From a candidate division WOR-3 bacterium (GTDB taxonomy: Bacteria > Hydrothermota > Tepidihabitantia > Tepidihabitantales > Tepidihabitantaceae), in the NCBI GenBank assembly GCA_013177935.1, contig JABLXZ010000001.1:99794-163793 (forward strand): a stretch of DNA of 64,000 bases. Direction: 5' to 3'. Shown here piece after piece: positions 22,301 to 39,778 of the stretch (its first letter is position 1; each line of letters opens with the position of its first letter). Made by a program: the position numbers and the translations under genes. Below the pieces are notes generated by a model. The model was not told where the DNA came from, ran no database searches, and saw only the letters and a program-made list of their open reading frames with translations.

Positions 22301-22978
22301 TCGCCGACCACAAACATCGTAACCTCGGACACGGTGCGCCGCGCGGTATTGATGCGCCAGTCATCAAGCGAAAACCCGAGTGCGGGTCTGGTTCTGCTTG
22401 AGCCCGAACGGTATGCCAACATCGGCGCGCTGGACCACGCTATCTATGTTTATCCGGACTCCTGTATGACCGATAACCAGAAGTATCGGGTTCTCAATGG
22501 TACGATTGTTCAGCGCAACTCCAACCGGGCTTATGACTGGTCGGTGTTTGTTTCTGCCGGGCCTCAGGACCTGCCGGTTGGTGGCACCTGGCGGATTGCA
22601 TTCGGCGTTGTTGGTGCGACTACGGTTAACGGGTTCTGGGAGGCGGCGGACAGTTGCCGGCGCTGGTACCAGGCGAACCTGCTTGGCGTGAAAGAGGAGT
22701 CGGGTGAGGTTCAGGCGAGTGCGGCAAAGCCGCTCGTTATCAGTCCGAACCCGTTCCGCAATGGTGCCTTCATCAACTACTTCAGCCCAGAAAAAGGCAA
22801 TCTGGAACTTTTGGTGTTTGATGCAGCGGGCAGAGTTATGGAACAGCACAGTTTTGCGGTTGAACCCGGAGCGGGCAGATTCTTCTACAAACCGGGCAGG
22901 CTTGCCAATGGCGTTTACTTCCTGAAGGTACGGGCACCAGGCTCAAGTGCGGTCGCCAAATTCTTAGTGGTCGAGTAG
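19394..22978 (+). CDS. Gingipain-like C25 cysteine peptidase, type IX-style secreted
   Basis: The 1194-residue protein has a signal peptide (MVRRVFVVLMAIVAIGISRA), a propeptide-like region to about residue 220 and a C25 domain at about 230-590. The catalytic pair is present: His433 in YRGHGDY and Cys470 in NIACNCG. After it come an Ig-like module (SVTLPDSIPLGPYNLNV), a CARDB-like module with NGRFDPGETGKIYVTLRNAG, another beta domain, and a C-terminal sorting domain (ISPNPFRNGAFINYF, LANGVYFLKVRAP). It should be exported and act on proteins at or outside the cell surface. It has its own promoter and is followed by a clear terminator, so it is a single-gene unit. Confidence 0.88.
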   Translation: MVRRVFVVLMAIVAIGISRAEWLTVNGAPDVPAVKILEQSSRSTTFEITVPGLELERVAVDGQEFVRLNLPGEVMAVLDEGKPQVPKVSVLLGIPQGAKVSTRVLSKETERFKVDRIYPLQPPLLDNQEPGPLVIDQAFYTQNISYPGKDVELINTGVWRDLGVANLQVYPVQVNPAKGEIEVTKRIRVRVDYSGGNYPEFVADWMVPLYSRYVDNFNLLPVKPLTDYTPGVRYLVFCHQKFDTCAYLNDSLLSWVHQRGYQVRKITKASFTAQEIKDSIRAEYNRNNPALLRWVLLVGEYGDIPMGSYSGVGRSDFWYSDISPWPSGDNYPEIGIARLSVKNPVDLSQQITKILKYQKNPPSTNNWLDKLSMPAHSQDYPGKYSGCVRGIYFMPKPYWNPSVVETIMGYYTGNTTVTNAINEGRGIVAYRGHGDYMEWQAWGRDGSWYNSHVNALSNGDLTPVVYNIACNCGDIYQDTCLSEKWMNKYPGGAAASLAATQASYTYPNHGICSTLVRATCDTWTITVPGVRNYGPTVFHLADIKCYGVDAYVAKYWPSSPYPDNIYMYVMLGDPSMPVWAGGMPQSPSVTLPDSIPLGPYNLNVTVRVGSRPVEGALVCAYKEPDIYVSERTNASGVAVLALNASTPGDVRITVSEGHAEHSVSGVQHTPILPFTTTRPVGGGGTPQPYVVYVSNMVVDSPPGGNSNGRFDPGETGKIYVTLRNAGNTEAQGVTARLKSSNNLFVITDSTSSYGNIPQDSLRNNRSDPFVAQANGSIPPGTVVVCTLKVHSDNYQHDWTYTFSLQVGQPPMPGQFMVDLDTGSVLLSVCAIGSIGYDEPATDLGQGFKVPKTAASCLYFGALLAGNSPTYLVDHFYGQPASSGTNHDWRTPDSFRMVTPPAPADEHWLNTLTDAGHSTPKGLQASQHLYMNSESGYDDWAVLTYEFTNNGSQPINGFYAGIIADFDVGSSPTTNIVTSDTVRRAVLMRQSSSENPSAGLVLLEPERYANIGALDHAIYVYPDSCMTDNQKYRVLNGTIVQRNSNRAYDWSVFVSAGPQDLPVGGTWRIAFGVVGATTVNGFWEAADSCRRWYQANLLGVKEESGEVQASAAKPLVISPNPFRNGAFINYFSPEKGNLELLVFDAAGRVMEQHSFAVEPGAGRFFYKPGRLANGVYFLKVRAPGSSAVAKFLVVE

Positions 22979-23362: not shown

Positions 23363-23364
23363 AT
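23337..23364 (+). promoter_or_regulatory. Promoter of the XRE-type regulator, overlapped by a palindrome
   Basis: TTGCCC (23337-23342), 16-base spacer, TATAAT (23359-23364). The perfect 16-base palindrome TATACTTTAAAGTATA at 23347-23362 covers the spacer and most of the -10 box. A protein bound there would block transcription of the regulator gene, the classic layout of autorepression. Confidence 0.5.
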
Positions 23365-23374
23365 GAGAATGGCT

Positions 23375-24382
23375 ATGGACAGGTTTGTCTGGACAAAACA
23401 GATGGGTGCACGGCTGCGCTCATTAAGGCAACGGGCAAATTTGAGCCTCAGGCAGATGGCAGAATTTATGGGAAAGGGTAAAGGGGGATGTAATGTGTTG
23501 AGCCGGCTGGAAAATGCGAGGGTCAAAAATCCATCGATTGGGTTAATTGCCGACTATTTGAGGGTGTGCCGGGCAGGGTTTAAGGAGATTGAGGATTTAT
23601 TAACGGGTTATACGGCGCTACCAGTGCCGCAGAAAAGGGTCGAGAAAACTGCGCAGAGAACCGCACCGGAGAAGAAACCTAAATTCGTTCGGACCGAAGA
23701 GCAGAAGGCGCGACGCCGGCTGGAGGTTTATCTGATGAAACTTCTGCGGCACGATGTTGAGGAGCGGCTTTGTTCAGTTTTGAAGGAGCTGGGTGAGGTG
23801 GTGGCACGCACCAGTGTTTGTGGTGCCCTGTGTCAAATCGGGCGCCGCTGGTTTGAGATTCTGTGGCGCACCCGCAACCGGCCCATAAGCCGGGAGCGGC
23901 AGTTGAAAAAGGAGTCAAGCCGGGCGTTGCCAATAGCGTTGAAAAAAGAGTGGGTTGAACGGGTGCGGCAGGAGATGGCGTTACTGGTTGAGGAGAAGTT
24001 AAGGACGATGGCGGAACTGTCGTCCGAGCAGACATTAGAAACCGTTACCACACCAATCAGGGCTGAAGACCGATTTTTACAGGAGCGGATGGCAGCGCGC
24101 ATTCAAATTCAGGAGTCCCAAAAGCGCCGGCTGGCGATGTTTGCCGATAAAATCGTTGCGGAGTTGAGAAGAGAAAACCTAACGGAAAATAAAATAGCGA
24201 TGGTTAAACTTTCCCTTCTGCCAGAACTGATGCGTATCTGTGATGAGACCCGTTTTGACCCGGCTGAGCGACAACGGCGCATTGAACTATTGCTCTTAAC
24301 CTGGAGGAAATTTCCGCAAATAGCAAGAATAAAGGAGATGTTTCTTGCTTATTATGAACAGGTTAATGATGTAAAGGGATAA
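23375..24382 (+). CDS. XRE-family HTH protein with long helical C-terminal region
   Basis: The protein (335 residues from ATG 23375) has an N-terminal XRE/Cro-type helix-turn-helix, about residues 9-62: MGARLRSLRQRANLSLRQMAEF, then CNVLSRLENARVKNPSIGLIADYL. The rest is highly charged and helical without a recognisable enzyme domain. Three in-frame ATG codons exist (23363, 23369, 23375). The third is chosen because the promoter's expected start (about 23371) lies upstream of it only; none has a ribosome binding site. The palindrome over its promoter suggests self-regulation. It precedes the pgs operon in the same direction but has its own promoter, so a role in controlling that operon is possible but unproven. 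Confidence 0.75.
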   Translation: MDRFVWTKQMGARLRSLRQRANLSLRQMAEFMGKGKGGCNVLSRLENARVKNPSIGLIADYLRVCRAGFKEIEDLLTGYTALPVPQKRVEKTAQRTAPEKKPKFVRTEEQKARRRLEVYLMKLLRHDVEERLCSVLKELGEVVARTSVCGALCQIGRRWFEILWRTRNRPISRERQLKKESSRALPIALKKEWVERVRQEMALLVEEKLRTMAELSSEQTLETVTTPIRAEDRFLQERMAARIQIQESQKRRLAMFADKIVAELRRENLTENKIAMVKLSLLPELMRICDETRFDPAERQRRIELLLLTWRKFPQIARIKEMFLAYYEQVNDVKG

Positions 24383-24426: not shown

Positions 24427-24454
24427 TTGACTTGGGCGAGACCGGTAATATAAT
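24427..24454 (+). promoter_or_regulatory. Promoter of the pgs surface operon
   Basis: TTGACT (24427-24432), 16-base spacer, perfect TATAAT (24449-24454). This is the best promoter in the window. The leader before pgsB (24479) would be about 18 bases. Confidence 0.7.
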
Positions 24455-24478
24455 TTTTTCCAACGACAGGCTCGGTCG

Positions 24479-25645
24479 ATGATTTTTATACTCATTCTTG
24501 TCCTGGTGTTTATCGGGTTTGGACTTGCCGAGTACTATCTCCATCTGAGAAACCTGAAAGCGATTCCGGTGCGGGTGCAGGTTAATGGCACCCGGGGCAA
24601 ATCTTCGGTGACGAGATTGATTGCCGCGGGGTTGCGCGCCGGCGGAATGCGGGTGGTTGCCAAGGTTACCGGCACAAAACCCCGTTTTATTGTTGGTGAC
24701 AGCGAGGAGTATCCGGTGCGGCGGCTGGGCAAGGCAAACATTATTGAGGAGTTGCGGATTGTGCGGCGGGCAAGAGCGTATCAGGCGCAGGCGCTGGTGA
24801 TTGAGTGTATGGCGCTGGTGCCGGAGTATCAGCGCATCGAGGGGCAGATGCTGATTCAGCCGACGCATGGGGTGATTACCAATGTCCGCGCCGACCATCT
24901 GGATGTGATGGGTCCTACGGTTTGGGATGTTGCCCGGGCTTTGAGCAATACGATTCCGCGACGCGGTAAGTTTTTTACTGCTGAGCGCGGGGCACCCCTT
25001 AAGGTGTTGCAGAAACGAATTCGACCAGGGGTGGAGATGACTGTTACCGACCCGGCGACGGTTAGCGATGAGGAGATGCGGGGTTTCAGTTACATCGAGC
25101 ACAAGGAGAATGTTGCGCTGGCGCTGGCGGTGTGTTCCAGTCTTGGTGTTCGGCGCGAGGATGCGCTGCGCGGGATGCAGCGCAGTTTACCCGACTCCGG
25201 GGTGATGCGGATTTATAAAATCGTTGATGGGGGTAAGACACTGGAAGTTGTCAATACCCTTGCCGCCAATGACCCGGACTCAATCGGGATGCTCTGGCGG
25301 CTGGTCAAGGACCACAGTGAGCGCCGGATTGTGCTGGTGAACTGTCGCCGGGACCGGACCGACCGCTCGCGCCAACTGGCGGAACTGGTTAAGGACTGGG
25401 AAAAGGATTACATTGTGGTCACCGGCGGTTTGACGAAAGTTTTTATCAACCGGGCGCGGCAGTTAGGCGTGCCCGCTGAAAAGGTTGTGGACCTGGGTGA
25501 GGAGTTAGAACCGGCGCTGGTCTATGAAAAGGTTTTGAGTCTGGTCAATGAGCGGGCGCTAATTTTCGCCACCGGGAATACGGTCGGTTATGGCGAAAGG
25601 CTGATTAACTTTTTTGCCCAGAAAGGAGGCAGGGTTGATAATTGA
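24479..25645 (+). CDS. pgsB: Poly-gamma-glutamate synthase ligase subunit PgsB (CapB)
   Basis: PgsB is a Mur-ligase-like amide ligase that uses ATP to link glutamates through the gamma carboxyl, working with PgsC at the inner membrane. The 388-residue protein has an N-terminal membrane helix (residues 2-20), the P-loop VNGTRGKSSVTR at 35-46, and the family segments VIECMALVPEYQRIEGQ and TNVRADHLDVMG. Length and order match Bacillus PgsB (about 393). Its end overlaps pgsC by 11 bases. It heads an operon of ten genes ending near 38829. The polymer made here may not be plain polyglutamate; pgsA and pgsE are missing from this locus. Confidence 0.92.
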   Translation: MIFILILVLVFIGFGLAEYYLHLRNLKAIPVRVQVNGTRGKSSVTRLIAAGLRAGGMRVVAKVTGTKPRFIVGDSEEYPVRRLGKANIIEELRIVRRARAYQAQALVIECMALVPEYQRIEGQMLIQPTHGVITNVRADHLDVMGPTVWDVARALSNTIPRRGKFFTAERGAPLKVLQKRIRPGVEMTVTDPATVSDEEMRGFSYIEHKENVALALAVCSSLGVRREDALRGMQRSLPDSGVMRIYKIVDGGKTLEVVNTLAANDPDSIGMLWRLVKDHSERRIVLVNCRRDRTDRSRQLAELVKDWEKDYIVVTGGLTKVFINRARQLGVPAEKVVDLGEELEPALVYEKVLSLVNERALIFATGNTVGYGERLINFFAQKGGRVDN

Positions 25646-26078
25646 AACCATCGGGCTGGGGATGCTACTTTCTTTTTTCCTTACCGAGACGGTCGGGCTG
25701 GCAGCCGGTGGCATTGTTGTGCCCGGTTACATCGCATTGAGTTTAAATGAGCCGGTGCGACTTCTGTCAACCGTAGCGGTGGCGTTTGTTACCTACTTCC
25801 TGTTAAAGTTTTTAAGCCGGTTTATGTTGCTCTTTGGTCGGCGCACACTTCTGCTCGGGGTACTCATCGGCTATCTATTGGGTTATGCGACCAAGATTGC
25901 ACCGCCGCTGAGCTTGAACACCGGCAGGGTGGATTTAAGTGTGATTGGTTATGTTATCCCGGGACTTATTGCCTACTGGATGAGTCGTCAGGGGATTGTG
26001 GAAACGATTTCCACGATGGTGATTGCTGCGGTACTCACCCGTTTTTTGATTACCGCAATATCGGGCGGGGTGTTCTGA
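25635..26078 (+). CDS. pgsC: Poly-gamma-glutamate synthase membrane subunit PgsC (CapC)
   Basis: PgsC is the multi-pass partner of PgsB. The 147-residue protein has four or five hydrophobic segments and the family features GLAAGGIVVPGYIAL near residue 22 and VDLSVIGYVIPGLIAYWM near residue 102. TTG 25635 (reading LIIETIGLG) is the likely start, with AAAGGAGGC five bases before it. An earlier in-frame start would only extend it into pgsB. It overlaps pgsB at its start and touches pgsW at its end (TGATG). Confidence 0.92.
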   Translation: MIIETIGLGMLLSFFLTETVGLAAGGIVVPGYIALSLNEPVRLLSTVAVAFVTYFLLKFLSRFMLLFGRRTLLLGVLIGYLLGYATKIAPPLSLNTGRVDLSVIGYVIPGLIAYWMSRQGIVETISTMVIAAVLTRFLITAISGGVF

Positions 26079-27169
26079 TGCGACGCCGGCGTGGTAAGAT
26101 AAATCGCTGGGTGATTTTTGTTCTGGCGCTAATCGCCCTGTTATTTTATTTTATCGAGACACGAACAAAACGGACGGTGCCGAGCCGCTGGTACGAAACA
26201 AAAATTGCCGCTGCCCGGTTGTCAGCAAAGGCGTTTGAGGTGGTGCGGAACTACCGGTTGAATGAACTCCATCTACCGATTGACTCGGTTAATGACCCGA
26301 ACTTAACCGGTCTGGTCGGGGTTCAATATTCCCAGATTACCTATGGGAGAACCGATTTGAGCGATGCTTTGACGACCACCAACCCGAACTTCAGTGCCGC
26401 CCTAATTGAGATGTTTTACAAAGCCGGTGCCAAAGCCGGTGATACCGTGGCGATAAACTGGGATGGAACATATCCAGCGTTAAATATCCAGATTCTGGCG
26501 GTGGCAAAGACCTTAGGTCTAATACCGGTGATTGTTACCGACCAGAGTGCCGGGATGTGGGGGGCAAACTATCCGGGCTGGACCTGGCTTGAGATTGAGC
26601 AAGTTCTGCGTCAAGCCGGACTATGGGATTTTTCAAGTGTCCTGGCAACCCGGGGTGGAGAGACCGATGATGGTCGGGGGTTTTCGCCCGAAGGCAGGAT
26701 GATTCTTGACAGCGTGGCAAAGTTAACCGGTGTGCCGTTGTTTGTGCCAGAGTCGCTCTCCAAAGCGGTCACAAAACGGGCGGCGATTTTTGAACGGTGC
26801 CGGCTTCTGGTTGCAGTGGGTCAGGCAAGTTCCAATTCCGGTGACCCACTTGTGCGGTTGCCATCAAGAGTAATTACCGAACGCATCGCCAAAGCCGGAA
26901 CCGGGATTGTTGCCGAATTTTTAAACCGGAGATTGCCGGTGATACACATTGGTAGCCCAAGGCGAGTTGCCAGTGATTACCGCTTGCCGATTGCACCGGT
27001 GCCGCTGGGCGAGATTGGCAAGGGCAGGTTGTTTTACGAAGCGCGTTACTCGGTTGTCGGTGCGCTCCTTCTGGCAATAGTTCTGTTCGGTCTATTATTT
27101 CTAATCGTCCGGTATGAGATTGAGTACTACTTTGGTGTTCGGGGTGAAGATGATGGGGAGGCGGTATGA
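26078..27169 (+). CDS. pgsW: Poly-gamma-glutamate system protein, PgsW-like
   Basis: The 363-residue protein belongs by pattern to the proteins that accompany PgsB/PgsC in many thermophiles and uncultured phyla. It has a basic N-terminus and a membrane helix (WVIFVLALIALLFYF), then an extracytoplasmic domain with LVGVQYSQITYGRTDLSDALTTTNPNFSAALIEMF. A second membrane helix lies near the C-terminus (VGALLLAIVLFGLLFLIV). Its biochemical role is not established. It is translationally coupled to pgsC (one-base overlap) and overlaps the next gene by four bases. Confidence 0.88.
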   Translation: MRRRRGKINRWVIFVLALIALLFYFIETRTKRTVPSRWYETKIAAARLSAKAFEVVRNYRLNELHLPIDSVNDPNLTGLVGVQYSQITYGRTDLSDALTTTNPNFSAALIEMFYKAGAKAGDTVAINWDGTYPALNIQILAVAKTLGLIPVIVTDQSAGMWGANYPGWTWLEIEQVLRQAGLWDFSSVLATRGGETDDGRGFSPEGRMILDSVAKLTGVPLFVPESLSKAVTKRAAIFERCRLLVAVGQASSNSGDPLVRLPSRVITERIAKAGTGIVAEFLNRRLPVIHIGSPRRVASDYRLPIAPVPLGEIGKGRLFYEARYSVVGALLLAIVLFGLLFLIVRYEIEYYFGVRGEDDGEAV

Positions 27170-28065
27170 TGAGACCGGTTAGCATGTTGACTGTTTTGTG
27201 CCTGACCGGTTTAGTCGCGGCGGCGCAGATTCAGCCGTTTGGCCAGCCGGCTAAAGTTCAGTTGAATGTTATCAAGCGGGTACCGGTTGACTACTACCTT
27301 TTGACTGGAGACCAGCCGCTGACCTTTAACATAAGCACCGTTTCCGATACCGGAAACTGGCTGCGGATTTACACCCGTTTGTGGTGGCAGAATCGGCAGG
27401 AAGATAAGGCGGTTTATTCAATCCTGTTTATTAAGGGCGGTCAGCGCCAGCGGTTCCGTCTTGAGACCGAACGGTCGAATAAAACACTGGGACCAGCAGG
27501 CCAGCAACTTGGTAAGTGGCGCTCTTTTTTTGTAAAACTGATGCCCGGTGATTCAAACTTCAAACTGGTTTTGGACAGTGCTCAGTCTGATACCGTGGCT
27601 ATACGGCTGGCGTTTGAGACGCCTGCGGTCTGGGAGAGGTTGACAGTTTCGGGTAGTAAAGGTTTGACAGTTATTACCAAACAGGGTAGTGAAACGATGC
27701 GCCGAAGTGGTTACTATCATATTATTCGTGATGAGCCCTGTGAAGTCAGTTTTTCCGGCTCTGGTCCGGTTCGGTTGCGGGTGCGGTTGAATTTTGACCC
27801 GACAATGCGCGGTGAGCAAGTGTTCGGGATTGCGGTTCAGGAGGATGGCAAATTAATTACGGAAAGGAGTTTTAGAGTGAAGAAGGCGCTTACCGCGCGC
27901 TATGAGGAGATGAGCGATGTTGTTCCTTCGGTGGAGCGGGTGTTGAAGTTTGATTTGAAACCGGGTGCGCACCGGCTCAAGATTGTCCTGCAGGGTACGA
28001 CCGCAAAAGGCGGGGCATTGATGATTGAAAGACTTGTAAAGGAAACAGGTTATGGCCAGGATTAA
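27166..28065 (+). CDS. Secreted protein of the pgs operon, unknown function
   Basis: The 299-residue protein has a signal peptide (MMRPVSMLTVLCLTGLVAAAQ). The mature part reads as two beta-sandwich-like halves, for example YYLLTGDQPLTFNIS and RIYTRLWWQN, then YYHIIRDEPCEVSFSGSG. I do not recognise a family. It overlaps pgsW (4 bases) and the next gene (14 bases), so it is an integral part of the operon and probably acts outside the inner membrane, next to the polymer ligase or its product. Confidence 0.75.
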   Translation: MMRPVSMLTVLCLTGLVAAAQIQPFGQPAKVQLNVIKRVPVDYYLLTGDQPLTFNISTVSDTGNWLRIYTRLWWQNRQEDKAVYSILFIKGGQRQRFRLETERSNKTLGPAGQQLGKWRSFFVKLMPGDSNFKLVLDSAQSDTVAIRLAFETPAVWERLTVSGSKGLTVITKQGSETMRRSGYYHIIRDEPCEVSFSGSGPVRLRVRLNFDPTMRGEQVFGIAVQEDGKLITERSFRVKKALTARYEEMSDVVPSVERVLKFDLKPGAHRLKIVLQGTTAKGGALMIERLVKETGYGQD

Positions 28066-29083
28066 ACCGGTAGTGCTTTTTTTGTTTTTGGCGACTGTTG
28101 CCCGGGGTGCGGATTTGTGGCGCACGGTCTGGGAGGCGGATGTTAAATACCATAACAACATCTTTCTTTTTTCCCCATCAGATATTGAGGTGTTCCGGCA
28201 GCGCGAGAATCCGGCACGATTTCCATACAAAACGCTTGATGATGTTGATGTAACAGTCTCTGGACAGTTAGCCTGGATGGGAACGAAAGGTTTTGAGCCG
28301 CAACTCGGTTTGAAAGTTCACCAGTTCATTATGAATTCAGAGAAGAGTTACGGACTGGTGACCTGCCGGATAAAACAGGATTTGGGAAAAGTTGGGACGG
28401 CTAAACTTTCTTTGGTATGGATGCCGAACTATCTGATTCGGTATTATCGCGATAATACCGTCAAGAGCGCTGTGCGGTATGCTGCGTGCCGTTTTAGTGA
28501 GTACCTGTTCGGGTTTGATTTTGAGCGGCAGTTCGGTCCGTTTACCCTGCAACCAGAATACCGTTTTGAAACAGACGATTACATTGCACCGTTTGACTAT
28601 TACGACACCAGGGCGCACCGGACCGGTATTTCAATCGACTGGTGCCCCTGGTCCAACTTTATGCTCAGCGGCGAGTACCGGTTCAAATGGGCAAGGGCAA
28701 AAGGTCCAACGCCGGATATATCTTACGACGAACAGCAGATTGGTTTTCAGGTGGCAAGTAGACCCAGAAGGTTTAATCGGTTCGCAATTAACGCCGGCTA
28801 CAACTGGTCTTATCGGCGTTACACAGCAACTGAAGATGAAACACACGCCGGCAGGATTGACGAAATTCAGGAGATAACCGTGGGCGCCGAATACCGGTTA
28901 AAACCGGTTACACTTTCCTTCACATATCAGCTGGAGTGGCGTGAAGTCAGTTCCCCTTACCAGAACGAGATTGACGAAATAAAGAATTACCGGGCGAGTG
29001 CATTCAGTTTTGGTGCCCGCCTGCCCCTTAAAATCGGTGCGGGCGCAAAGGCACAAAAAGGAAAGAAAGGGGGAGAAAGGTGA
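28052..29083 (+). CDS. Outer-membrane beta-barrel-like protein of the pgs operon
   Basis: The 343-residue protein has a signal peptide (MARIKPVVLFLFLATVARGA). The mature chain is rich in aromatic residues spaced for amphipathic strands: LSLVWMPNYLIRYYRDNT, YRFETDDYIAPFDYYDTRAHR, FAINAGYNWSYRRY and TLSFTYQLEWREV. This suggests a small outer-membrane barrel. The C-terminus has a Lys/Gly tail rather than a terminal aromatic. It lies between two secreted-protein genes of the operon and overlaps both. A porin or export role for a polymer is possible but not shown. Confidence 0.7.
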   Translation: MARIKPVVLFLFLATVARGADLWRTVWEADVKYHNNIFLFSPSDIEVFRQRENPARFPYKTLDDVDVTVSGQLAWMGTKGFEPQLGLKVHQFIMNSEKSYGLVTCRIKQDLGKVGTAKLSLVWMPNYLIRYYRDNTVKSAVRYAACRFSEYLFGFDFERQFGPFTLQPEYRFETDDYIAPFDYYDTRAHRTGISIDWCPWSNFMLSGEYRFKWARAKGPTPDISYDEQQIGFQVASRPRRFNRFAINAGYNWSYRRYTATEDETHAGRIDEIQEITVGAEYRLKPVTLSFTYQLEWREVSSPYQNEIDEIKNYRASAFSFGARLPLKIGAGAKAQKGKKGGER

Positions 29084-30333
29084 AAACGGCGGGCAAATTG
29101 GTTTACCGGCTGTTTTTTTTACTGACGGTAGTCTTTACCGGCTTTGGGGTTTACTGTATTCGTCCCCTGCCTGCTCCGGGTAAAGTGGTGTTGAATCTTC
29201 CAGCACCGGATGCGGTTTTAAATTCGGCAGAAGTTACATTTCAATGGGAAGATGTTGGTGCCGACTCTTATCTGTTACAGGTTGCTCAGGATAGCAAGTT
29301 TAAAAGTTTGGTGGTTGATGATACGGTTGCCGGATATTCGGTGACGGTCAGGTTGAAGACCGATGGTAACTATTTCTGGCGGGTAAAGGCACAGAGCGAA
29401 GAAGGGATTTGGGGTGACTGGTCCGAAACCGGTTCGTTTACGATTCAACGGTTTGCTCTTGTCGGTACGGCCAAGACTACCGGCTATCCTCATAATATTG
29501 CGATTGCCGAAAACCGGGCTTATGTGGCGGATGGTCAGGCTGGTCTGGCGGTTTTTGATATTTCCAATCCTGAGGCGCCGGTGTTTATGGGCGGCTATCT
29601 GGACTCACTGAATGTCGCCTGGGGCGTTGCGGTGCAAGACAGTCTGGCGTTTCTTGCCTATGGTTATAAGGAACTTTTGATTTTAAATGTCCGCCAGCCC
29701 GAGAGTATTAAGGTTACTGGCGTTCTTGAGTACCCGCAACCCGGTTATGGTTACAATCTGGTATTGCAGGACACCTGGGTTTACATCGCGGCGGGCGCTC
29801 AGTTTATCGCCGCATCAGTAAGCGACCCGCGTTATCCCAACCTCCGGTTTCAATACTATTACCCGCGTGACTGCCGGGATGTTGCTTTGCGTGCGCCCTG
29901 GGCTTTTGTCGCCTGTGAACAGTTAGGCGTTGCTGCCTGGCGTCTTGACACCTTTCCACCGGTACAGGTCGGAAGTTTTGATACGCCAGGAAACGCCCGC
30001 GGCATTGCGGTCCGGGATAACCATATTTTTGTCGCGGATGGGCGTACTGGGTTAATAGTTCTTGATGGGTCGGAGCCGGATAGTATCAAGGTGCTGAGTA
30101 CATTAGCCCTTGAGGGATATGCAAATTCAGTTGTGATAGACGATAGCCTGGTGATAGTTTCCTGCGGTTCCGGTGGAGTTGCAATTGTGAACTGTGTTCA
30201 GCCTGAATCACCCGAACTGGTGGCACAGATAAAAACCCCATATGCGTATGCGGCGGGAGTATCTGCCAACCATCACTATTATCTGATTTGTGACCGGGAT
30301 TGGGGAATTGTAACTATCAGGAAGGAGGAATGA
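29080..30333 (+). CDS. LVIVD-repeat beta-propeller protein with fibronectin-like domain
   Basis: The 417-residue protein (GTG start behind GGAGAAAGG) has an N-terminal hydrophobic signal or anchor (VYRLFFLLTVVFTGFGVY). A fibronectin-type III-like domain spans about residues 38-125 (FQWEDVGADSYLLQVAQD, YFWRVKAQSEEGIWGDWSE). Seven or so LVIVD repeats follow, each with a pattern like AYVADGQAGLAVFDISNPEAP. Such propellers usually bind proteins or sugars at the surface. Its start overlaps the preceding gene by four bases, and it ends three bases before the next ATG. Confidence 0.8.
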   Translation: MKTAGKLVYRLFFLLTVVFTGFGVYCIRPLPAPGKVVLNLPAPDAVLNSAEVTFQWEDVGADSYLLQVAQDSKFKSLVVDDTVAGYSVTVRLKTDGNYFWRVKAQSEEGIWGDWSETGSFTIQRFALVGTAKTTGYPHNIAIAENRAYVADGQAGLAVFDISNPEAPVFMGGYLDSLNVAWGVAVQDSLAFLAYGYKELLILNVRQPESIKVTGVLEYPQPGYGYNLVLQDTWVYIAAGAQFIAASVSDPRYPNLRFQYYYPRDCRDVALRAPWAFVACEQLGVAAWRLDTFPPVQVGSFDTPGNARGIAVRDNHIFVADGRTGLIVLDGSEPDSIKVLSTLALEGYANSVVIDDSLVIVSCGSGGVAIVNCVQPESPELVAQIKTPYAYAAGVSANHHYYLICDRDWGIVTIRKEE

Positions 30334-30335
30334 TA

Positions 30336-33300
30336 ATGACCGGGTTGGGAATTTTACTTCTTGTCTTTGGTGCGCACAGTTTTATTGACAGTCCTGTTTC
30401 GGTTTCTTTCCGGTCTCAAACTTTAAATATCACTGTAACACCTCAAGAATCAATTACTGCTAATGCGATTCTTGTTCCAGCACCGGGCGCGGTTTTACCA
30501 GAAGTTTCTTCTGCCCAGAACTGCCAATGGTTTTTTGGCAGGGTGATGAAGGCAGGGGGAGTTGAGGTTGTTCCCTTGATTGTTGTACCCGAAGGTGATA
30601 ACAAGGCAGAGTTAGAACTGAAATTGGTGCAATCGATTGATAAGCGTTGGATGGATAACCCGATGGCGCGTTTGTTATTTCCCTGGTCGAGCGGCTGGGA
30701 AAACAACAATGAAGAAATTGGTTATCTGATTATTGTCCCGGACGATTTTTATGACCACATTCTGCCCTTAGCGCGGTGGAAGGAACTTAAAGGGTTTAAG
30801 GTGTGGGTCAAAAAGACATCAGAGACCGGAACACAGCGGGATGAGATACGGAATTTCATCAGCAACGCCTATGCGACCTGGAACCCAAAACCGACCTATG
30901 TGCTGTTAGTAGGAGCGATAAACAAAATTCCTGCTTTTCCGACACCGGGTGCAACTTCCTGCGTAACCGACCATACCTACTCTTTGGTGGATGGTGATGA
31001 CCACCTTGCGGACCTGTTTGTTGGCAGACTCCCGGCAGCGAATGTGTCAGAACTGGATTGCATTGTAGCAAAAATTGTTAACTACGAATCAAACCCTTAT
31101 ATGGCTGATACATCCTGGTTTCATCAGGCGTTGATGGTCGGCACAAGTTATCAGGAAGGCGGTACACCCGCGGTTACGGCACTGGTTACAAAGCGACGCA
31201 TCCGCGAGCAACTTCTGAGGCGCGGATTTCATAAGGTTGACACCGTATTCTATCCGCCCACGCTTTCTGGTCGGGGACCGGTTGACAGCGCGGTTAATTC
31301 CGGAGTTTTGTTTGTCAATGGTAGAGGCTGGGGTCAAACAAGAATGTGGAACTATCCGCAGTTTGAGATTAACGATGTTTATAACCTGAATAATGGATGG
31401 AAGTTGCCGGTCATTACCAGTCTTTACTGCGGCACCGGTAATTACGGCGCAAACCCCTGTTTTGGTGAGGCGTGGCTGCGTGCCGGTACCCCTACCAATC
31501 CCAAGGGAGGGGTTGCATTCTGGGGGACATCTTATACCGGCACCTCAACCCGCTGGAACAACTGTATGGACTACGGGATTTATCGGGCGATATTTGACCG
31601 CAATGTTACGACCACAGGACCGGCGATGTACTGCGGGAAACTGGAGCAGTTGATGAACTTTCCGTTGCCCGAAGACTCTTCGGACCTGATTTTATATTTT
31701 TACACTTACAACCTTCTTGGCGATCCATCAATGGAGATGTGGACCACGGTGCCCAAAGAGGTTACCGTTTCCTACCCTGCGGTCTATCCGACTGGAAATA
31801 TTTCTTTTCCGGTTTATGTCCAGGATGCTTCGGGCAACCCGGTAAAAGACGCCCTGGTCTGTCTTTACAAGTCAGGCGAGGTGCATTCATTGATGCGAAC
31901 GAACAGCGCGGGCTGGGCACGGTTTGTCATTACCACGACGACACCGGATACGCTGTTTGTCACCGTTACCGGCAAAAATCTTAAACCCCATCTTGGTTTC
32001 AGCCTTGGTGAGGAAAGAGGGGTTCTGGTTGGCATTGCTAATTACGACCCGGAACTTGTTTCACCATCCGAGTTAGCCAATGTCTCTGTGACTTTGAAAA
32101 ATTTTGGTGTTTCACAGCCCGCGAATGGGATTCAGGCGGTTCTTTATTCTCTTGACTCTTTTTCTACGGTAGCGGACTCAATCCGGGATTATGGTACGCT
32201 TAATCCCGGAGAGGAGCGCACCGCAACACCGTTTGTGGTCCAGATTGCACCGTCCTGTACCAGTCAGCAACGATTAAATTTTGGGTTGAGGATAACAGGT
32301 GGTGACAGTGTCTGGACAACAGGGTTTTCGCTTGAGGTTGTGGGCCCGACTATGGCGGTAACCGGTTTAACGGTCTACGATGCCAATGGATTTCTTGACC
32401 CGGGGGAAACAGGAGAGTTGTCGGTACGGGTGCTGAATCGCGGTGATGTTGAAGCGCAAAATGCCACAGGAATTCTGCGTTCTTCTAACAACCGGGCAAT
32501 AGCGGTGCTTGATTCTTCAGGTTATTTTGGAACGGTTGGAGCAGGTAGCACAGGAGAGAATATTAGCGACCGGTTTGTGGTTCAAGCCGCACCGGGCATC
32601 GGTGTTGGCCGGAAGTTTCTTATGTGGTTGGTTTTCAGGAGTTCAGACGGTTTTGAGCAGACTGTAGGATTTCCGATTACAGTGGGCGAGCCAATTGCCA
32701 GCGCACCATTGGGTCCAGATTATCATGGGTATTATGGCTATGATGACACCGATATCGGTTATCAGGAGCGACCGGTTTATAACTGGGTTGAGATTGACCC
32801 TGGGCAAGGTGGGGCAGGAACCCATCTGGAACTCGGTAATGACCAGACGATACCAATTGACCTGCCGTTTACCTTCAAGTTTTATGGAACTGAGTACCGG
32901 ACCATCTCGATTGCCGATAACGGTTACATCGCAATGGGCAGCACAACTTTCAGCGACCAGTACAACTGGCACATCCCTTCGGCACAAGGACCGGACGGCT
33001 TAATTGCGGTGTTCTGGGACGACTTCCGGGCAGACACATTGGGAGCACCCGGCGTGTTCTACTATTACGACGAACCGAATCATCGTTTTATTGTCCAGTG
33101 GAGCCGTGTGTATCATATTCACGGTTTTCGCAGACCCTATATCGGGGAGCAGCAAACATTCCAGGCGATTCTATTTGACCCGGCTTTTCATCCCACAAAA
33201 ACCGGTGATGGTGCGATTGTTTGCCAGTACCTTTATGTACAGAACGATGACACATTATGGCAGAATAGTCACAATTTCGCTACAGTTGGTATTCAGAGCC

Positions 33301-33722
33301 CGAGCCACAACGATGGCTTAGAATGGACATTTGCCGGCAGTTATCCAGTAACCGCGGCTGAGGTTGTACCGGGAAGGGCGATTAAGTTCACAACCAATCC
33401 GCCAGATACATTTACCTTTGTCAGTGAAGACCAGAGCAGAGAGTTTGGCACCTTGTTTGAAGCGAAACCTAATGTTGCCCAGAGCAACGTTTCGTTTATT
33501 ATCAGAGGTATTGATGAGGGCACGGTACAGATTTTTGATGTTACCGGCAGACAGGTGCGCAGGTTTGAAGTATCTAATGCTAAACCGCAAAGTTACCTCC
33601 GCTGGGATTTAAAAGATAACAAAGGTGCGGTGGTTCCGGGTGGCGTGTATCTGGTGCAATTGACGGGAACGAGCCGCGCCGGTAAAATTTTAGAGAACAA
33701 GGCGGTTGTTGTTGTCCGTTAA
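30336..33722 (+). CDS. C25-like protein lacking the catalytic His (Trp at the site)
   Basis: The 1128-residue protein has a short signal peptide (MTGLGILLLVFGAHS) and a gingipain-like fold from about residue 130 to 480. The Cys is kept (Cys365 in TSLYCGTGNYG), but the motif that carries the catalytic His in the 19394 protein (RGHG) reads RGWG, with Trp332. Downstream are a CARDB-like module (GFLDPGETGELSVRVLNRGD), a jelly-roll module with YRTISIADNGYIAMG and AVFWDDFRADTLGAPGVFYYYD, and a FlgD-like C-terminal domain. ATG 30336 is preferred because AAGGAGGA lies at 30322-30329; ATG 30330 is too close. It is probably a structural or binding protein rather than a normal protease. Confidence 0.82.
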   Translation: MTGLGILLLVFGAHSFIDSPVSVSFRSQTLNITVTPQESITANAILVPAPGAVLPEVSSAQNCQWFFGRVMKAGGVEVVPLIVVPEGDNKAELELKLVQSIDKRWMDNPMARLLFPWSSGWENNNEEIGYLIIVPDDFYDHILPLARWKELKGFKVWVKKTSETGTQRDEIRNFISNAYATWNPKPTYVLLVGAINKIPAFPTPGATSCVTDHTYSLVDGDDHLADLFVGRLPAANVSELDCIVAKIVNYESNPYMADTSWFHQALMVGTSYQEGGTPAVTALVTKRRIREQLLRRGFHKVDTVFYPPTLSGRGPVDSAVNSGVLFVNGRGWGQTRMWNYPQFEINDVYNLNNGWKLPVITSLYCGTGNYGANPCFGEAWLRAGTPTNPKGGVAFWGTSYTGTSTRWNNCMDYGIYRAIFDRNVTTTGPAMYCGKLEQLMNFPLPEDSSDLILYFYTYNLLGDPSMEMWTTVPKEVTVSYPAVYPTGNISFPVYVQDASGNPVKDALVCLYKSGEVHSLMRTNSAGWARFVITTTTPDTLFVTVTGKNLKPHLGFSLGEERGVLVGIANYDPELVSPSELANVSVTLKNFGVSQPANGIQAVLYSLDSFSTVADSIRDYGTLNPGEERTATPFVVQIAPSCTSQQRLNFGLRITGGDSVWTTGFSLEVVGPTMAVTGLTVYDANGFLDPGETGELSVRVLNRGDVEAQNATGILRSSNNRAIAVLDSSGYFGTVGAGSTGENISDRFVVQAAPGIGVGRKFLMWLVFRSSDGFEQTVGFPITVGEPIASAPLGPDYHGYYGYDDTDIGYQERPVYNWVEIDPGQGGAGTHLELGNDQTIPIDLPFTFKFYGTEYRTISIADNGYIAMGSTTFSDQYNWHIPSAQGPDGLIAVFWDDFRADTLGAPGVFYYYDEPNHRFIVQWSRVYHIHGFRRPYIGEQQTFQAILFDPAFHPTKTGDGAIVCQYLYVQNDDTLWQNSHNFATVGIQSPSHNDGLEWTFAGSYPVTAAEVVPGRAIKFTTNPPDTFTFVSEDQSREFGTLFEAKPNVAQSNVSFIIRGIDEGTVQIFDVTGRQVRRFEVSNAKPQSYLRWDLKDNKGAVVPGGVYLVQLTGTSRAGKILENKAVVVVR

Positions 33723-33737
33723 AAAGAAAGGGGTGTT

Positions 33738-35027
33738 ATGAAGAGGTTGGTCTTAATCCTTGGTTTTCTTGCAATCATCGCGTCTTCCTGGGCGCTTATC
33801 TTCCACGGTGTCGCAACACCGCCCGGTGGAGAGCACGCCTGGGTTGTGACGATTGAAACTACCGCAGTGTTTCACTCAACCGATTTTGGTTCATCCTGGG
33901 AACCGGTTGAGATTCCTACAATCCGGGACTTTTTTGATGTTTTCTTTTTAACTCCGGATTCAGGCTGGACCTCGGGCAGGTCAGGTGATATCTGGCGAAC
34001 CATCGATGGCGGGGACAGCTGGTCAAGGGTTAATCTCGGTGGTCCGAAACATGCAGCACGCATCAGATTTTTTGACCCTGAGTTTGGCTGGGCAGCAGGT
34101 GGCGATATCGTTCAGTTGAAAAGTACAACCGGTGGTGCCGAATGGGAGCAGATATTTTTAAGGGTTCCGCCATTTCCCGCCGGAGATACCGCTGAGTTTC
34201 AAGGGGTCTGGTTTGTTGACCGGAATTATGGCTGGTTGGTTGCCGGTCACTGGCCCAGTGGCGATACATTTTTAGGTGGACAAGGAGTCATTGCTCGAAC
34301 CAGAGATGGAGGCACCGCAGATAACTGGGAGGTGTTACGCCGCGATAACAACTACGACTTTTATGATGTTTATTTCGCAGACAGCTTGCGAGGCTGGGTT
34401 GTCGGCGGTGATGACCGGAATTTCCGGGCGGTCGTTTTACATACGACCGATGGTGGAAATACCTGGGTTGAGCAGACGGTTCCGGCTGAGGCGCGGTTTC
34501 TGCGTGCGCTAAAGTTCATCAGTCCAACAAAGGGCTGGGCTTGTGGCAGAAATGGTACAATAATCCACACTTCAGATGGTGGAAATACCTGGGTTAGTCA
34601 GATTTCCGGTGCTGATAGTACCCTTTTTGACATCGATTTTGCCGATTCGCTGCGCGGTATGGCTTCAGGAAACGGTGTTGTGGTAAGGACGATTGATGGT
34701 GGTGCGACCTGGCAGGTTTGCTTTAGTGGATTGGAGGAAGGGAGTAATGGGCGGTTGTTTAAAGGGCAGGCTATCCGGTGTCTGGGCACAGTGGGTCGGA
34801 CGATAACTTTTGTAATCGATGAGCAAAATCGGCAGGGCACGATTGAAGTTTATGACCTGTTTGGCCGTCAGTTGGCAATCCTTGGTTTTGGCAACAATAC
34901 AAAGTCTGTGGTCTGGAATGGCAGTGGTTTTGATGGTCAGCCGGTTAAATCCGGTGTCTATTTTGCTCGGCTGAAAGGGGTGTTAAATTCGGGTGTGAGG
35001 TTTGTGTTTATCAGGAGCGAAAATTAA
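33738..35027 (+). CDS. Ycf48/BNR-type beta-propeller secreted protein
   Basis: The 429-residue protein has a signal peptide (MKRLVLILGFLAIIASSWA) and at least six repeats of the form GWxxGxxGxIxxTxDGGxxW: WTSGRSGDIWRTIDGGDSW, then WVVGGDDRNFRAVVLHTTDGGNTW and WACGRNGTIIHTSDGGNTW. These are typical of Ycf48-like and BNR propellers. The last 80 residues form a FlgD-like domain (GTIEVYDLFGRQLAIL, GQPVKSGVYFARLKG). It sits between the two altered C25 genes and abuts the second one exactly (stop at 35027, next ATG at 35028), so a joint function is likely. Confidence 0.83.
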   Translation: MKRLVLILGFLAIIASSWALIFHGVATPPGGEHAWVVTIETTAVFHSTDFGSSWEPVEIPTIRDFFDVFFLTPDSGWTSGRSGDIWRTIDGGDSWSRVNLGGPKHAARIRFFDPEFGWAAGGDIVQLKSTTGGAEWEQIFLRVPPFPAGDTAEFQGVWFVDRNYGWLVAGHWPSGDTFLGGQGVIARTRDGGTADNWEVLRRDNNYDFYDVYFADSLRGWVVGGDDRNFRAVVLHTTDGGNTWVEQTVPAEARFLRALKFISPTKGWACGRNGTIIHTSDGGNTWVSQISGADSTLFDIDFADSLRGMASGNGVVVRTIDGGATWQVCFSGLEEGSNGRLFKGQAIRCLGTVGRTITFVIDEQNRQGTIEVYDLFGRQLAILGFGNNTKSVVWNGSGFDGQPVKSGVYFARLKGVLNSGVRFVFIRSEN

Positions 35028-38000
35028 ATGAAGAAGCGATTAATTGGCATCTTTTTACTTTTTGCGTTAGGATTTGCGGAAGAGGGGGCAAGGTATCTTA
35101 TCATTTCTCATCCTGCATATGTTCCAATAGTTCAACCGCTTGCTGAGTGGAAGACGAAGAAAGGGGTGAAGGCGAAAGTTGTTTCTGTGTCGGAAATTGG
35201 CTCGACCCCTTCACAAATCCAGGCTTATATCCGGGACGCTTACAACAACTGGCCTGTAAAACCGGAGTTCGTGCTTTTGGTTGGTTCACCCAGTCAAATT
35301 CCAAGTTATGGCGGTACCACCGACTGTTACTATGGGGATATGTCTGGAGATTACAAGATGGAGATTTCGGTCGGCAGATTCTTTGCAATGAACGCCCGGG
35401 AGTGCAGTACAATGGTTGCCAAGGTCCTTGCCTATGAGAAACCGAACCTGCAGACAATTGACACCCTTTATTATCTGAAAGGGACTACGGTGGTACGTGA
35501 GGATAACCCTCCCGATGTTTATTATCAGGCAGATGCCAGACTGGTACGCAGTTACTGGCAGACTGCCGGCTATGTTTTAACCGAAAGTCTGTTGAACAAC
35601 GCGGGTCACAACACCAGTCATGTAAATGCTGCCGGCATTGACGGCAGGATGTTTATCACTTACCGGGGACAGGGTGTTTATGACTGGTGGTCACCTTTTA
35701 ACGGAGTTGACCCTTCAAGCTGGAATAATGGGTCAAAGTTACCGATTGTTGTTTCCGGTTCCTGTGCAATGATTGACCTTTCCTCCCAAGGGGGTGGTAT
35801 GCAGGGTGACCGGTTTGTTCGGGCAGGAACACCTTCTGCGCTCGGCGGCGTACTTGCCTATTTTGGAACAACAAATAGTGGTTCACACATTTCCGACCGG
35901 CGCAGCGCCTGTTATCGTGGTTTCTTTACCGCCCTGTTTCAGGAGGGTGAATACCGTCTTGGTCCAGCAACACTGCGGGGCAGGTTCTGGGTTGATTCGC
36001 TTTTTCACCAGCAACAATATTACCAGGAGTGGAATCTTCTTGGCGACCCGGAGTTGAATGTCTGGACCGGTGTTCCACGACAGGTTACGGTTCTGTTCGA
36101 CTCGGTGATTGAGATGGCGCCGCAGGAGATGGTCATTACAGTTTTACGAAATGGGGTTCCGATCCCTGGTGTTCTGGTGTGTGTGTCGATGGACAGCACG
36201 ATTTATGCAGTGGAAACAACCGATGTGCAGGGCGAGGCTCATATCTTGGTGAACCCAACTCACATCGGGATGATGGAGCTGGTTGTCACCGGGAAAAATA
36301 TCCTGCCTTATGAGGGAAGGGCACGGGTAATAACAAGTGGTACACCTTTTATTATTAAGGTTCACAGTTCTATTGACGACTACCTGGGAAATCACGACGG
36401 GTTGATAAATCCCGGGGAGCAGTTTCGTTTGACAGTCAGTTTGAAAAATGTGGGAGGTGTTACCGCGACCGGTGTTACCGGTCTGTTAAGGGTGTCATCA
36501 CCGGCATTGCAGGTATTTGATAGTGTATCAAATTATGGTGCCATTGCACCAGACTCAACCCAGAATGGTGACCCGTATGAACTGTGGGTTGACAGTTTGG
36601 TGCCCGATGGGTTTGTTATCCCGGCGACGATTCTGGTCCGAGATGAGGCAGGGGATTCCTGGCAATATCCGCTTGATTTGATAGTACGGGCGGGTTTAAT
36701 CAGGGTCAATACGGCATACTTTATTGATTCAGCACCCGGTGGAAATGGTAATGGCAGGGTAGGTAGACTGGAAAGCGGTTTGGTCCAGCTGGCAGTGGTA
36801 AATCAAGGCGGTGGTGCGCTGGAGAGGGTGCAGTGTATTATCACCTGTCTTGATACGAATGTGGTGGTAGTGGATTCTTCGGGTTATTATGGCAGGATTG
36901 ACTCGGGTGCGATAAACAACGGTTTGCTGGACCAATTTGCGATTTCCGCTGGACCCGGGCTGATACGAAATCAACCGGTACGCTTTTTTGTGAGAGTTCA
37001 GGGCGATGGTGGTACATACCGTTATTCGGATACATTCAGTTTTGAACTTTCCGGTGAAGAAGGGGTAACAAGCGAACCGACTGGACCTGATGTATATGGT
37101 TACTGGTGTTATGATGATACCGATACAGCCTCGGGACGAGCACCGGTTTACCAGTGGCTGGAACTGGCGCCGCCCGGACCGGGTACGGTTATTTCCGGCG
37201 TTTCCGATTCGGATGCGGTGACAATAACATTGCCCATTCCGTTTACATTCCAGTATTATGGTACAAGAGACAATTTTGTCTCAATCTGTTCCAATGGATT
37301 TCTGACGCTGGGATATACCACTTATCGTTTTGGTTCCAACCGGCAGATTCCCGATACCGCCGGACCGCCTTTTATGATTGCTCCTTTCTGGGACGATTTG
37401 AATCCCGATGAAACCCGCAATGGGTACGGGACCGCATATCAGTATTTTGATACCGTAAATCACCGCTGGATTGTGGAGTTTAAGGATTTTGCGCATTACA
37501 ATCAGCCTAACATCCGCGAGAGTTTTCAAATAATCTTCTATGACCCGGCTTACTATCCAACACCTACTGGCGATGGCGAAGTGGTCTTCCAGTATCAACA
37601 GGTTGCGCTGGGGTCAAGTTGTACTGTGGGCATTGAGGACGGGACAGAAACGCAAGGAATCCAGTATCTATATAACAACAGTTATGCGTCCACTGCTGCT
37701 TATCTTCAGGCGAACCGGGCAATAAAATTTACTACTAACCCGCCGAGAAACATTATGAGTCCCTGGCTGGTGCTTTCTGGTGTTCAGGTGAGCGATACTC
37801 TTGAGGGCAATGGTAATGGATTATGGGAAGCGGGCGAACGGTTGGAGGTCGCGGTTTTTCTGCAAAATCGGGGGAGTTGTGATGCGGTCAACAGTGTTAT
37901 TGTCCTGAATTCAGAAGATGGTGATGCGGTTATTTTCGATTCAGTCTCGGTTTTAGGGTTAATTCCTGCCGGTGCGACAGTTAGCAACATTGCCAATCCG

Positions 38001-38420
38001 TTCCGGCTGGAGATTGTGCCTCAGCCGGAGGATTCAATTCTTGAATTCGGGCTGAGAGTTCAGGCAGAAGGATACATTACACTAAATTACTTTTCGCTCG
38101 GGATTTCTGGTTTAACCGGAGTAGAGGAAAAGCGGTCAGGGTTGCAGGTGGTTGGAATTGAGAAAATTAGACCCAATCCGATTAGCCGTTCTACAGTGCT
38201 TTACTATACTCTTGCTCAAACCGGTGAGGTTGACCTTGCTTTGTTTGATGCTTTGGGTCGCAGGGTCAAAACAATTGAACGCGGTGTTAAGTCCGGTGGT
38301 GTGCATCAGGCTCGTCTTTCTTGCGATGGGCTTTCAAACGGGGTATACTTCTGCCGGCTTTTGGTAAAAAACGGTACGGAAGAGAAGAAGTTTATTCAAA
38401 AGGTGCAGATTGTTCGGTGA
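35028..38420 (+). CDS. C25-like protein lacking the catalytic His (Gln at the site)
   Basis: The 1130-residue protein has a signal peptide (MKKRLIGIFLLFALGFA) directly followed by the C25-like domain, without the long propeptide of the 19394 protein. The site equivalent to the catalytic His reads RGQG (Gln215), while the Cys remains (Cys246 in SGSCAMID). Later modules include two CARDB-like domains (NHDGLINPGEQFRLTVSLKN and NGNGLWEAGERLEVAVFLQN) and a jelly-roll module (FVSICSNGFLTLG, IAPFWDDLNPD). The FlgD-like C-terminus has IRPNPISRSTVLYYT and LSNGVYFCRLL. Architecture parallels the 30336 protein, so the pair likely arose by duplication. Confidence 0.83.
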   Translation: MKKRLIGIFLLFALGFAEEGARYLIISHPAYVPIVQPLAEWKTKKGVKAKVVSVSEIGSTPSQIQAYIRDAYNNWPVKPEFVLLVGSPSQIPSYGGTTDCYYGDMSGDYKMEISVGRFFAMNARECSTMVAKVLAYEKPNLQTIDTLYYLKGTTVVREDNPPDVYYQADARLVRSYWQTAGYVLTESLLNNAGHNTSHVNAAGIDGRMFITYRGQGVYDWWSPFNGVDPSSWNNGSKLPIVVSGSCAMIDLSSQGGGMQGDRFVRAGTPSALGGVLAYFGTTNSGSHISDRRSACYRGFFTALFQEGEYRLGPATLRGRFWVDSLFHQQQYYQEWNLLGDPELNVWTGVPRQVTVLFDSVIEMAPQEMVITVLRNGVPIPGVLVCVSMDSTIYAVETTDVQGEAHILVNPTHIGMMELVVTGKNILPYEGRARVITSGTPFIIKVHSSIDDYLGNHDGLINPGEQFRLTVSLKNVGGVTATGVTGLLRVSSPALQVFDSVSNYGAIAPDSTQNGDPYELWVDSLVPDGFVIPATILVRDEAGDSWQYPLDLIVRAGLIRVNTAYFIDSAPGGNGNGRVGRLESGLVQLAVVNQGGGALERVQCIITCLDTNVVVVDSSGYYGRIDSGAINNGLLDQFAISAGPGLIRNQPVRFFVRVQGDGGTYRYSDTFSFELSGEEGVTSEPTGPDVYGYWCYDDTDTASGRAPVYQWLELAPPGPGTVISGVSDSDAVTITLPIPFTFQYYGTRDNFVSICSNGFLTLGYTTYRFGSNRQIPDTAGPPFMIAPFWDDLNPDETRNGYGTAYQYFDTVNHRWIVEFKDFAHYNQPNIRESFQIIFYDPAYYPTPTGDGEVVFQYQQVALGSSCTVGIEDGTETQGIQYLYNNSYASTAAYLQANRAIKFTTNPPRNIMSPWLVLSGVQVSDTLEGNGNGLWEAGERLEVAVFLQNRGSCDAVNSVIVLNSEDGDAVIFDSVSVLGLIPAGATVSNIANPFRLEIVPQPEDSILEFGLRVQAEGYITLNYFSLGISGLTGVEEKRSGLQVVGIEKIRPNPISRSTVLYYTLAQTGEVDLALFDALGRRVKTIERGVKSGGVHQARLSCDGLSNGVYFCRLLVKNGTEEKKFIQKVQIVR

Positions 38421-38445
38421 GGAGTTATTAGAAAAGAGGTAATTA

Positions 38446-38829
38446 GTGAGATTGCTACTGATTCTTCCTGCTCTCTGGTTCGTGGTTACTTTCTTTAATA
38501 CGGGATGCAATTCCGGTCTTCCACCTCAAAAACCGCAGATATTTGCCCGCCGGGATAGTGGGGCAGTTGGCGACACAATCATAATTCAAATCTACACTCT
38601 GGACCCCGAAGACCAGATGGTAACATACTGGGTTGAATGGGGTGACACAACTGTACCGCAATGGTCTTACTTTTTCCAGAGTGGTGATACCATTGAGCGC
38701 ACCCATATCTATTGTACTCCCGACACCTATTTTATTCGGGTCAAGGCACGAGATATCGACCGAAATGAGTCGCCCTGGTCTGATAGTTTTAAGATGAGAA
38801 TAACCGACACCATCACACCGGGGAGTTAA
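38446..38829 (+). CDS. Small PKD-like lipoprotein
   Basis: The 127-residue protein (GTG start behind AAAGAGG) has a lipoprotein signal ending FNTGC, so Cys21 is the likely lipid site. The rest is one Ig-like/PKD-type domain with DPEDQMVTYWVEWGDTT and the closing HIYCTPDTYFIRVKARD. It is the last gene of the pgs surface operon, 25 bases after the second altered C25 gene and just before the terminator. It may tether or contact the secreted proteins made upstream. Confidence 0.75.
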   Translation: MRLLLILPALWFVVTFFNTGCNSGLPPQKPQIFARRDSGAVGDTIIIQIYTLDPEDQMVTYWVEWGDTTVPQWSYFFQSGDTIERTHIYCTPDTYFIRVKARDIDRNESPWSDSFKMRITDTITPGS

Positions 38830-38878
38830 AGCCGGTTGACAGAGTTTGGTTTCTTTCGAAACCGGCGCCCCGATTTTT
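38819..38878 (+). terminator. Candidate terminator of the pgs operon
   Basis: GCCGGTT (38831-38837) pairs with AACCGGC (38860-38866). GGGG and GCCCC flank it, and GATTTTT follows. A second hairpin, GGTTTC (38848-38853) with GAAACC (38858-38863), uses some of the same bases, so the two structures exclude each other. Confidence 0.45.
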
Positions 38879-39750: not shown

Positions 39751-39778
39751 TTGACACCGGCAAAGAAGCAGGTATAAT
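39751..39778 (+). promoter_or_regulatory. Promoter of the GyrI-like lipoprotein gene
   Basis: TTGACA (39751-39756), 16-base spacer, TATAAT (39773-39778), both boxes perfect. The leader to ATG 39817 is about 30 bases and carries AAAAAGGAGAG. Confidence 0.7.

Follow-up and report, generated by a model that had tools for sequence, protein, structure and literature searches.

The window, by which we mean the whole stretch of 64,000 nucleotides analysed here from a candidate division WOR-3 bacterium, contains an operon in which genes for a poly-gamma-glutamate (PGA) synthase are followed by genes for predicted envelope and surface proteins. The genome holding the operon is 1.96 Mb. As an earlier note on this DNA had described, ten genes lie in the same direction on the + strand, between 24479 and 38829, with junctions of only -14 to +25 bases. 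Its identifications of pgsB, pgsC and pgsW, all above their NCBIfam cut-offs, and of the LVIVD, Ycf48-like and two C25 proteins, each of which has a family match, are likewise confirmed. The features are listed below.

24427..24454, + strand: sigma-70-type promoter, TTGACT-16-TATAAT, 11/12 match, ~25 bases 5' of pgsB
24479..25645, + strand: pgsB, Mur-ligase-like poly-gamma-glutamate synthase (TIGR04012)
25635..26078, + strand: pgsC, integral membrane subunit (TIGR04011, CapC PF14102)
26078..27169, + strand: pgsW, inner-membrane-anchored with a periplasmic domain (TIGR04332)
27166..28065, + strand: U299, secreted or periplasmic, tandem beta-sandwich (jelly-roll-like) domains, from the fold of a homologue (L155)
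28052..29083, + strand: Barrel, predicted 14-stranded outer-membrane channel (AlphaFold2 (AF2), Foldseek)
29080..30333, + strand: LVIVD beta-propeller (PF08309, 73.7 bits)
30330..33722, + strand: C25a, C25 protein without the catalytic His (W334, C367), type IX sorting-like tail
33738..35027, + strand: Ycf48-like beta-propeller (PF14870, Ycf48/PSII_BNR, 94.7 bits), type IX sorting-like tail
35028..38420, + strand: C25b, second His-less C25 protein (Q215, C246), type IX sorting domain
38446..38829, + strand: small PKD-like lipoprotein, accessory (PKD_4, E 0.03)
~38831..38878, + strand: weak terminator-like hairpin (fold z -1.39, not significant)

PgsB passes TIGR04012 with 400.2 bits (cut-off 222.7), PgsC passes TIGR04011 with 122.2 bits (cut-off 96.45) and matches CapC PF14102 with 117.7 bits, and PgsW scores 219 bits against a cut-off of 100 for TIGR04332. 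A search of solved structures with PgsW gave no match. Judged by spacing, pgsC probably starts at the TTG at 25635, behind AAGGAGG; the start of C25a was corrected to the ATG at 30330, which lies in an ATGA overlap. The absence of pgsA, remarked on in the earlier note, holds for the operon but calls for a qualification: no operon protein matches PGA_cap (pgsA/capA), and the matches sit on contig C4. There, a 975-amino-acid protein (L198:2051-4978, ~203.5-206.5 kb of the contig) combines PGA_cap (CapA/PgsA-type, 217.8 bits) with a PKD domain and a type IX-like C-terminal tail, and it may supply the PgsA function outside the cell.

Within a phylum set of 147 genomes, 43 loci had at least 7.5 kb downstream of pgsW and were testable for gene order. 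Of these, 25 retain the arrangement PgsB-PgsC-PgsW-U299-Barrel-LVIVD-C25a-Ycf48(-C25b), on one strand, in seven families and with differing flanks; the adjacency of pgsBCW to C25-like and propeller genes, for which a survey of relatives had been proposed, thus recurs. The others have the core plus LVIVD only (family f3), the core only (f20-f23 and f27) or, in a few cases, rearranged or missed genes. The earlier note had counted pgsBCW without any of the seven downstream genes as evidence against its proposal. This is seen only in part: some WOR-3 genomes have pgsBCW without LVIVD, C25 or Ycf48, yet nearly all of them keep U299-Barrel, often fused. The operon can thus be divided into a core half and an accessory half. 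The tenth gene, encoding the PKD-like lipoprotein, was seen only in the window's family (f1).

Presence of the two membrane partners is strongly correlated. PgsW (TIGR04332) occurs in 70 of the 147 genomes and the Barrel profile in 72: both are present in 66, PgsW only in 4, Barrel only in 6 and neither in 71 (Fisher 2e-29, a value that ignores kinship). Several of the ten discordant cases are fragmentary genomes or genomes whose locus lies at the end of a contig.

Outside the phylum, a PgsW scan of GTDB genomes yielded 80 loci, in which U299 was scored where at least 1.2 kb lay downstream. U299 follows pgsW in 12/12 WOR-3 loci and in 19/19 other named loci of the Fibrobacterota-Chlorobiota-Bacteroidota (FCB) group; in the named loci that belong to Planctomycetota, Myxococcota, Deltaproteobacteria, Spirochaetota, Nitrospirota and Gammaproteobacteria it never does (0/33). 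The cluster also includes LVIVD and a C25a-like gene in Bacteroidota, Krumholzibacteriota, Marinimicrobia, Fermentibacteria and Melioribacter, the C25 gene lying either up- or downstream. Since the same gene set recurs across FCB bacteria, it probably encodes an undescribed polymer-making and two-membrane export machine. When we looked for an alternative exporter beside pgsBCW in one Spirochaete and one myxobacterium, the neighbours were a coenzyme A-ligase-like protein and a protein kinase.

It could be argued that PgsBCW-U299-Barrel is one polymer machine and that LVIVD, C25 and Ycf48 are merely co-regulated surface proteins, physically apart from it. This would explain family f3, in which the core occurs without C25 and Ycf48, and families f20-f23 and f27, which have none of LVIVD, C25 and Ycf48; secreted C25 proteins are also plentiful, with 15 C25 matches in the window's genome. 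However, the His-less C25 family and LVIVD stand beside pgsBCW in Bacteroidota, Krumholzibacteriota, Marinimicrobia and Melioribacter, in varied arrangements, and we consider mere co-regulation quite unlikely.

Further support for a connected export path comes from U299. The window protein matches no Pfam or NCBIfam family above threshold, and the few orthologues that match general families do so weakly and to miscellaneous kinds. Our structural view of it is taken from L155, in which PgsW and U299 form a single frame (pLDDT 89.5). In this model the PgsW half begins and ends with long helices that flank an alpha/beta middle, and the U299 part consists of beta-sandwich domains whose fold matches are carbohydrate-binding jelly-rolls, including BcsB, with low TM-scores. 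Four loci from Krumholzibacteria and their kin (L125, L140, L149 and L155) have such PgsW-U299 frames, of 670-686 amino acids. These frames have an extra hydrophobic stretch between the halves, which would put U299 back in the periplasm. Seven WOR-3 loci from beyond the window's taxonomic order (L112-L114 and L116-L119) show a second kind of fusion, which joins U299 to Barrel in a frame of 535-654 amino acids, with both profiles matched significantly. The two kinds of fusion therefore tie U299 to a partner in the inner membrane and, on its other side, to one in the outer membrane, and the gene order PgsW-U299-Barrel parallels the path from inner to outer membrane.

The AF2 model of Barrel (mean pLDDT 90.6) is a closed barrel of 14 strands, and its N-terminus is signal-like; by prediction, then, it has both the signal peptide and the even-stranded closed fold of an outer-membrane beta-barrel. 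The nearest solved structures in Foldseek are the 14-strand channels OmpG (E 2.4e-10) and CymA, with PgaA lower among the matches. The window protein has no family above threshold; a few orthologues match beta-barrel families weakly, one of them the PelB barrel. When conservation was mapped on the model, 29 of the 30 most conserved residues fell on the inferred extracellular side, in loops or strand halves assigned outside, the thirtieth being Met1. In outer-membrane proteins it is generally the outer loops that vary. Because they are conserved here, the model points to a docking or gating site at the extracellular mouth. The same clustering of residues would also suit a system in which Barrel and U299 import or sense the polymer or oligo-glutamate and the operon serves capsule turnover, as would the general function of CymA and OmpG as uptake channels. 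Against such a role, PgsB and PgsC are synthetic enzymes, family searches recognised no hydrolase or inner-membrane importer among the operon proteins, and fusions bind U299 to PgsW. An uptake function is thus very doubtful.

The remaining operon genes encode proteins that would act at the cell surface. The LVIVD propeller is a probable lipoprotein, its N-terminal Cys being kept in orthologues. C25b scores 35.4 bits against the type IX sorting domain TIGR04183, above the cut-off of 23. The tails of C25a (22.1 bits) and the Ycf48-like protein (20.6 bits) fall just under this cut-off, and 12/15 and 10/16 of their orthologues, respectively, match the domain (E <= 0.001).

Alignment with gingipain R2 places W334 of C25a and Q215 of C25b at the position of the catalytic His, in agreement with the 'Trp site' and 'Gln site' of the earlier note; the nucleophile is still Cys (C367 and C246). 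Neither protein therefore has the His-Cys dyad of type IX sortases and C25 peptidases. Every operon C25a orthologue checked, in all phyla, lacks the His and retains the Cys, and 7 of the 10 C25 domains examined in the window's genome keep the GHG motif. In the C25 tree, all His-less sequences, namely C25a, C25b and the members from other phyla, form one clade (support 0.97) that excludes this genome's GHG paralogues; a single sequence with GHG, from Fermentibacteria, adjoins the clade. A single His-less clade across phyla suggests that the loss is old, and it may have been a single event. A third His-less C25 protein (YRGSG) is encoded outside the operon (L037, contig C1:635552-636547) and groups in the C25b clade. 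Chance adjacency, considered because C25 genes are common in the genome, was ruled out by the conserved order, the clade structure and the recurrence across phyla.

The earlier note had compared the C25 proteins to the sortase PorU, and this comparison did not hold. C25a and C25b score 54.4 and 41.6 bits against NF033707, far under the cut-off of 420, and two true PorU genes above that cut-off lie elsewhere in the genome (C2:384457-387573 and C1:432864-435992). Nor is PorZ supported as an identity for the Ycf48-like protein of the window: a search at E 0.001 gave it no match to NF052228 (cut-off 260 bits), and 4/16 orthologues match weakly.

These results bear on the idea that the polymer anchors type IX cargo in place of anionic lipopolysaccharide (A-LPS), with C25a/C25b and the Ycf48-like protein acting as PorU and PorZ. 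A C25 protein paired with a tailed propeller does resemble PorU/PorZ (PMC8545088), the Cys is invariant in the operon C25 proteins, and U299 and Barrel accompany pgsBCW only in lineages that bear SprA, the type IX translocon: SprA is above cut-off in 16/16 carriers outside WOR-3 versus 0/20 non-carriers, four Spirochaetes giving weak matches only, under the cut-off. Yet no operon orthologue checked has the catalytic His, the genome carries two intact PorU elsewhere, and the PorZ-model matches occur in few orthologues and may reflect the tail only. Moreover, nearly every genome of the phylum has SprA (145/147; in the window's genome at C1:182776-185607, 452.5 bits joined) and PgsW is present in only 70/147. 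Type IX secretion is thus independent of the operon, and cargo attachment in general does not need it. We regard the polymer as cargo anchor as highly improbable.

Our preferred interpretation, which we hold to be likely though by no means certain, is that the operon specifies a system spanning the envelope, in which a PGA-type polymer is made and exported across two membranes, with surface proteins at the mouth of the channel. From what is known of their families, PgsB and PgsC would polymerise the amide chain and move it across the inner membrane. Gene order, fusions, co-occurrence and fold suggest that PgsW and U299 would span the periplasm and that the 14-stranded Barrel would release the chain through the outer membrane. 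At the outer mouth of Barrel, the polymer could be held, capped or organised by LVIVD, as a lipoprotein, and by C25a, the Ycf48-like protein and C25b, as proteins exported by the type IX route. Having lost the catalytic His, the C25 proteins would bind or give structure, acting neither as protease nor as sortase; this is the least certain step. The export path through PgsW, U299 and Barrel has good comparative support; the identity of the polymer and the role of the surface proteins we infer. In outline this agrees with the earlier note, which had proposed a surface polymer and proteins for its export or attachment, and conserved order, PgsW/Barrel co-occurrence, both kinds of fusion and the 14-strand channel model all favour that proposal.

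Several observations weigh against this interpretation. The polymer is predicted here from genes, and it could be another gamma-linked amino-acid chain. Jelly-rolls are common folds, PgaA and BcsB give low to moderate TM-scores in Foldseek, and the orientation of Barrel comes from topology rules. WOR-3 genomes with pgsBCW-U299-Barrel alone indicate that LVIVD, C25 and Ycf48 are not essential for export, and one genome with pgsBCW and no Barrel found (G072) is probably a true exception. Finally, FCB ancestry confounds the association of the operon with type IX secretion. It is tempting to go further and picture a dedicated FCB machine for polymer export through two membranes, PgsBCW-U299-Barrel, whose product is held at the mouth, possibly covalently, by C25-fold proteins exported by type IX secretion and without protease activity, as an alternative anchor to A-LPS; this fuller version seems unlikely.

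Upstream of pgsB, TTGAC.../TATAAT-type boxes are also found in the same place in one relative of the same genus (G111) and four of the same family (G107-G110), which makes the promoter, scoring 11/12 and first pointed out in the earlier note, more than a chance match. The terminator-like hairpin also proposed there was not upheld: its fold z is not significant and the terminator scan does not list it. An HTH_31 protein (window 23363-24382) ends 96 bases 5' of pgsB, is found there only in the same genus and is possibly a local regulator. Further 5' of the operon, a C25 protein (window 19394-22978) with a propeptide, an intact GHG motif and a sorting-like tail is probably an active gingipain-type protease; it adjoins the operon only in the genus. 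A 12/12 sigma-70 promoter, TTGACA-16-TATAAT, lies at window 39751-39778, just 5' of a small lipoprotein-like gene at 39817.

Compared to PgsBCA(E)/CapBCA(E) of Bacillus, the operon has PgsB and PgsC above the NCBIfam equivalog cut-offs, but it has no recognised pgsA/capA, and PgsW, the periplasmic U299, Barrel in the outer membrane and the surface proteins are additions, in a two-membrane cell. The PgsBCW clusters (TIGR04332) of Planctomycetota, Myxococcota, Spirochaetota and others share the three-gene core, whereas U299 or Barrel occurs in none of their 33 named loci outside the FCB group. Similar to BcsB-BcsC, PgaA-PgaB and PelB export, an inner-membrane synthase is combined with a periplasmic carbohydrate-binding-like protein and an outer-membrane barrel; here, however, the enzyme is an amide ligase rather than a glycosyltransferase, no TPR domain is recognised and the 14-strand barrel is nearer OmpG/CymA. 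The type IX attachment complex (PorU, PorV, PorQ, PorZ) likewise pairs a C25 fold and a propeller having a sorting-like tail with an outer-membrane barrel, and SprA is in the genome, but the operon C25 proteins have no catalytic His, score far under the PorU cut-off and are separate from the true PorU.

In Cloacimonadota, PGA synthesis has been inferred (PMC8542988), and PGA genes have been reported together with a floc matrix called most probably poly-gamma-glutamate (PMC13082233); the passages searched of these two papers contain no description of the present cluster. In the open-licence literature we found neither a published description of the system nor a report joining PGA synthesis to type IX secretion or to a dedicated outer-membrane channel. 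The cluster is probably a variant of the PgsBC kind for which no earlier description was found.

The best-studied cases of PGA synthesis are in bacteria with a single membrane, and we found no description of a route for the polymer across an outer membrane. The cluster offers a specific path (PgsW, U299, Barrel) in a large bacterial group that includes Bacteroidota, which are sometimes open to genetics. It also connects polymer export to a new clade of C25-fold proteins without the protease His. If the same genes are present in Cloacimonadota, they would be candidate genes for the floc matrix reported in PMC13082233.

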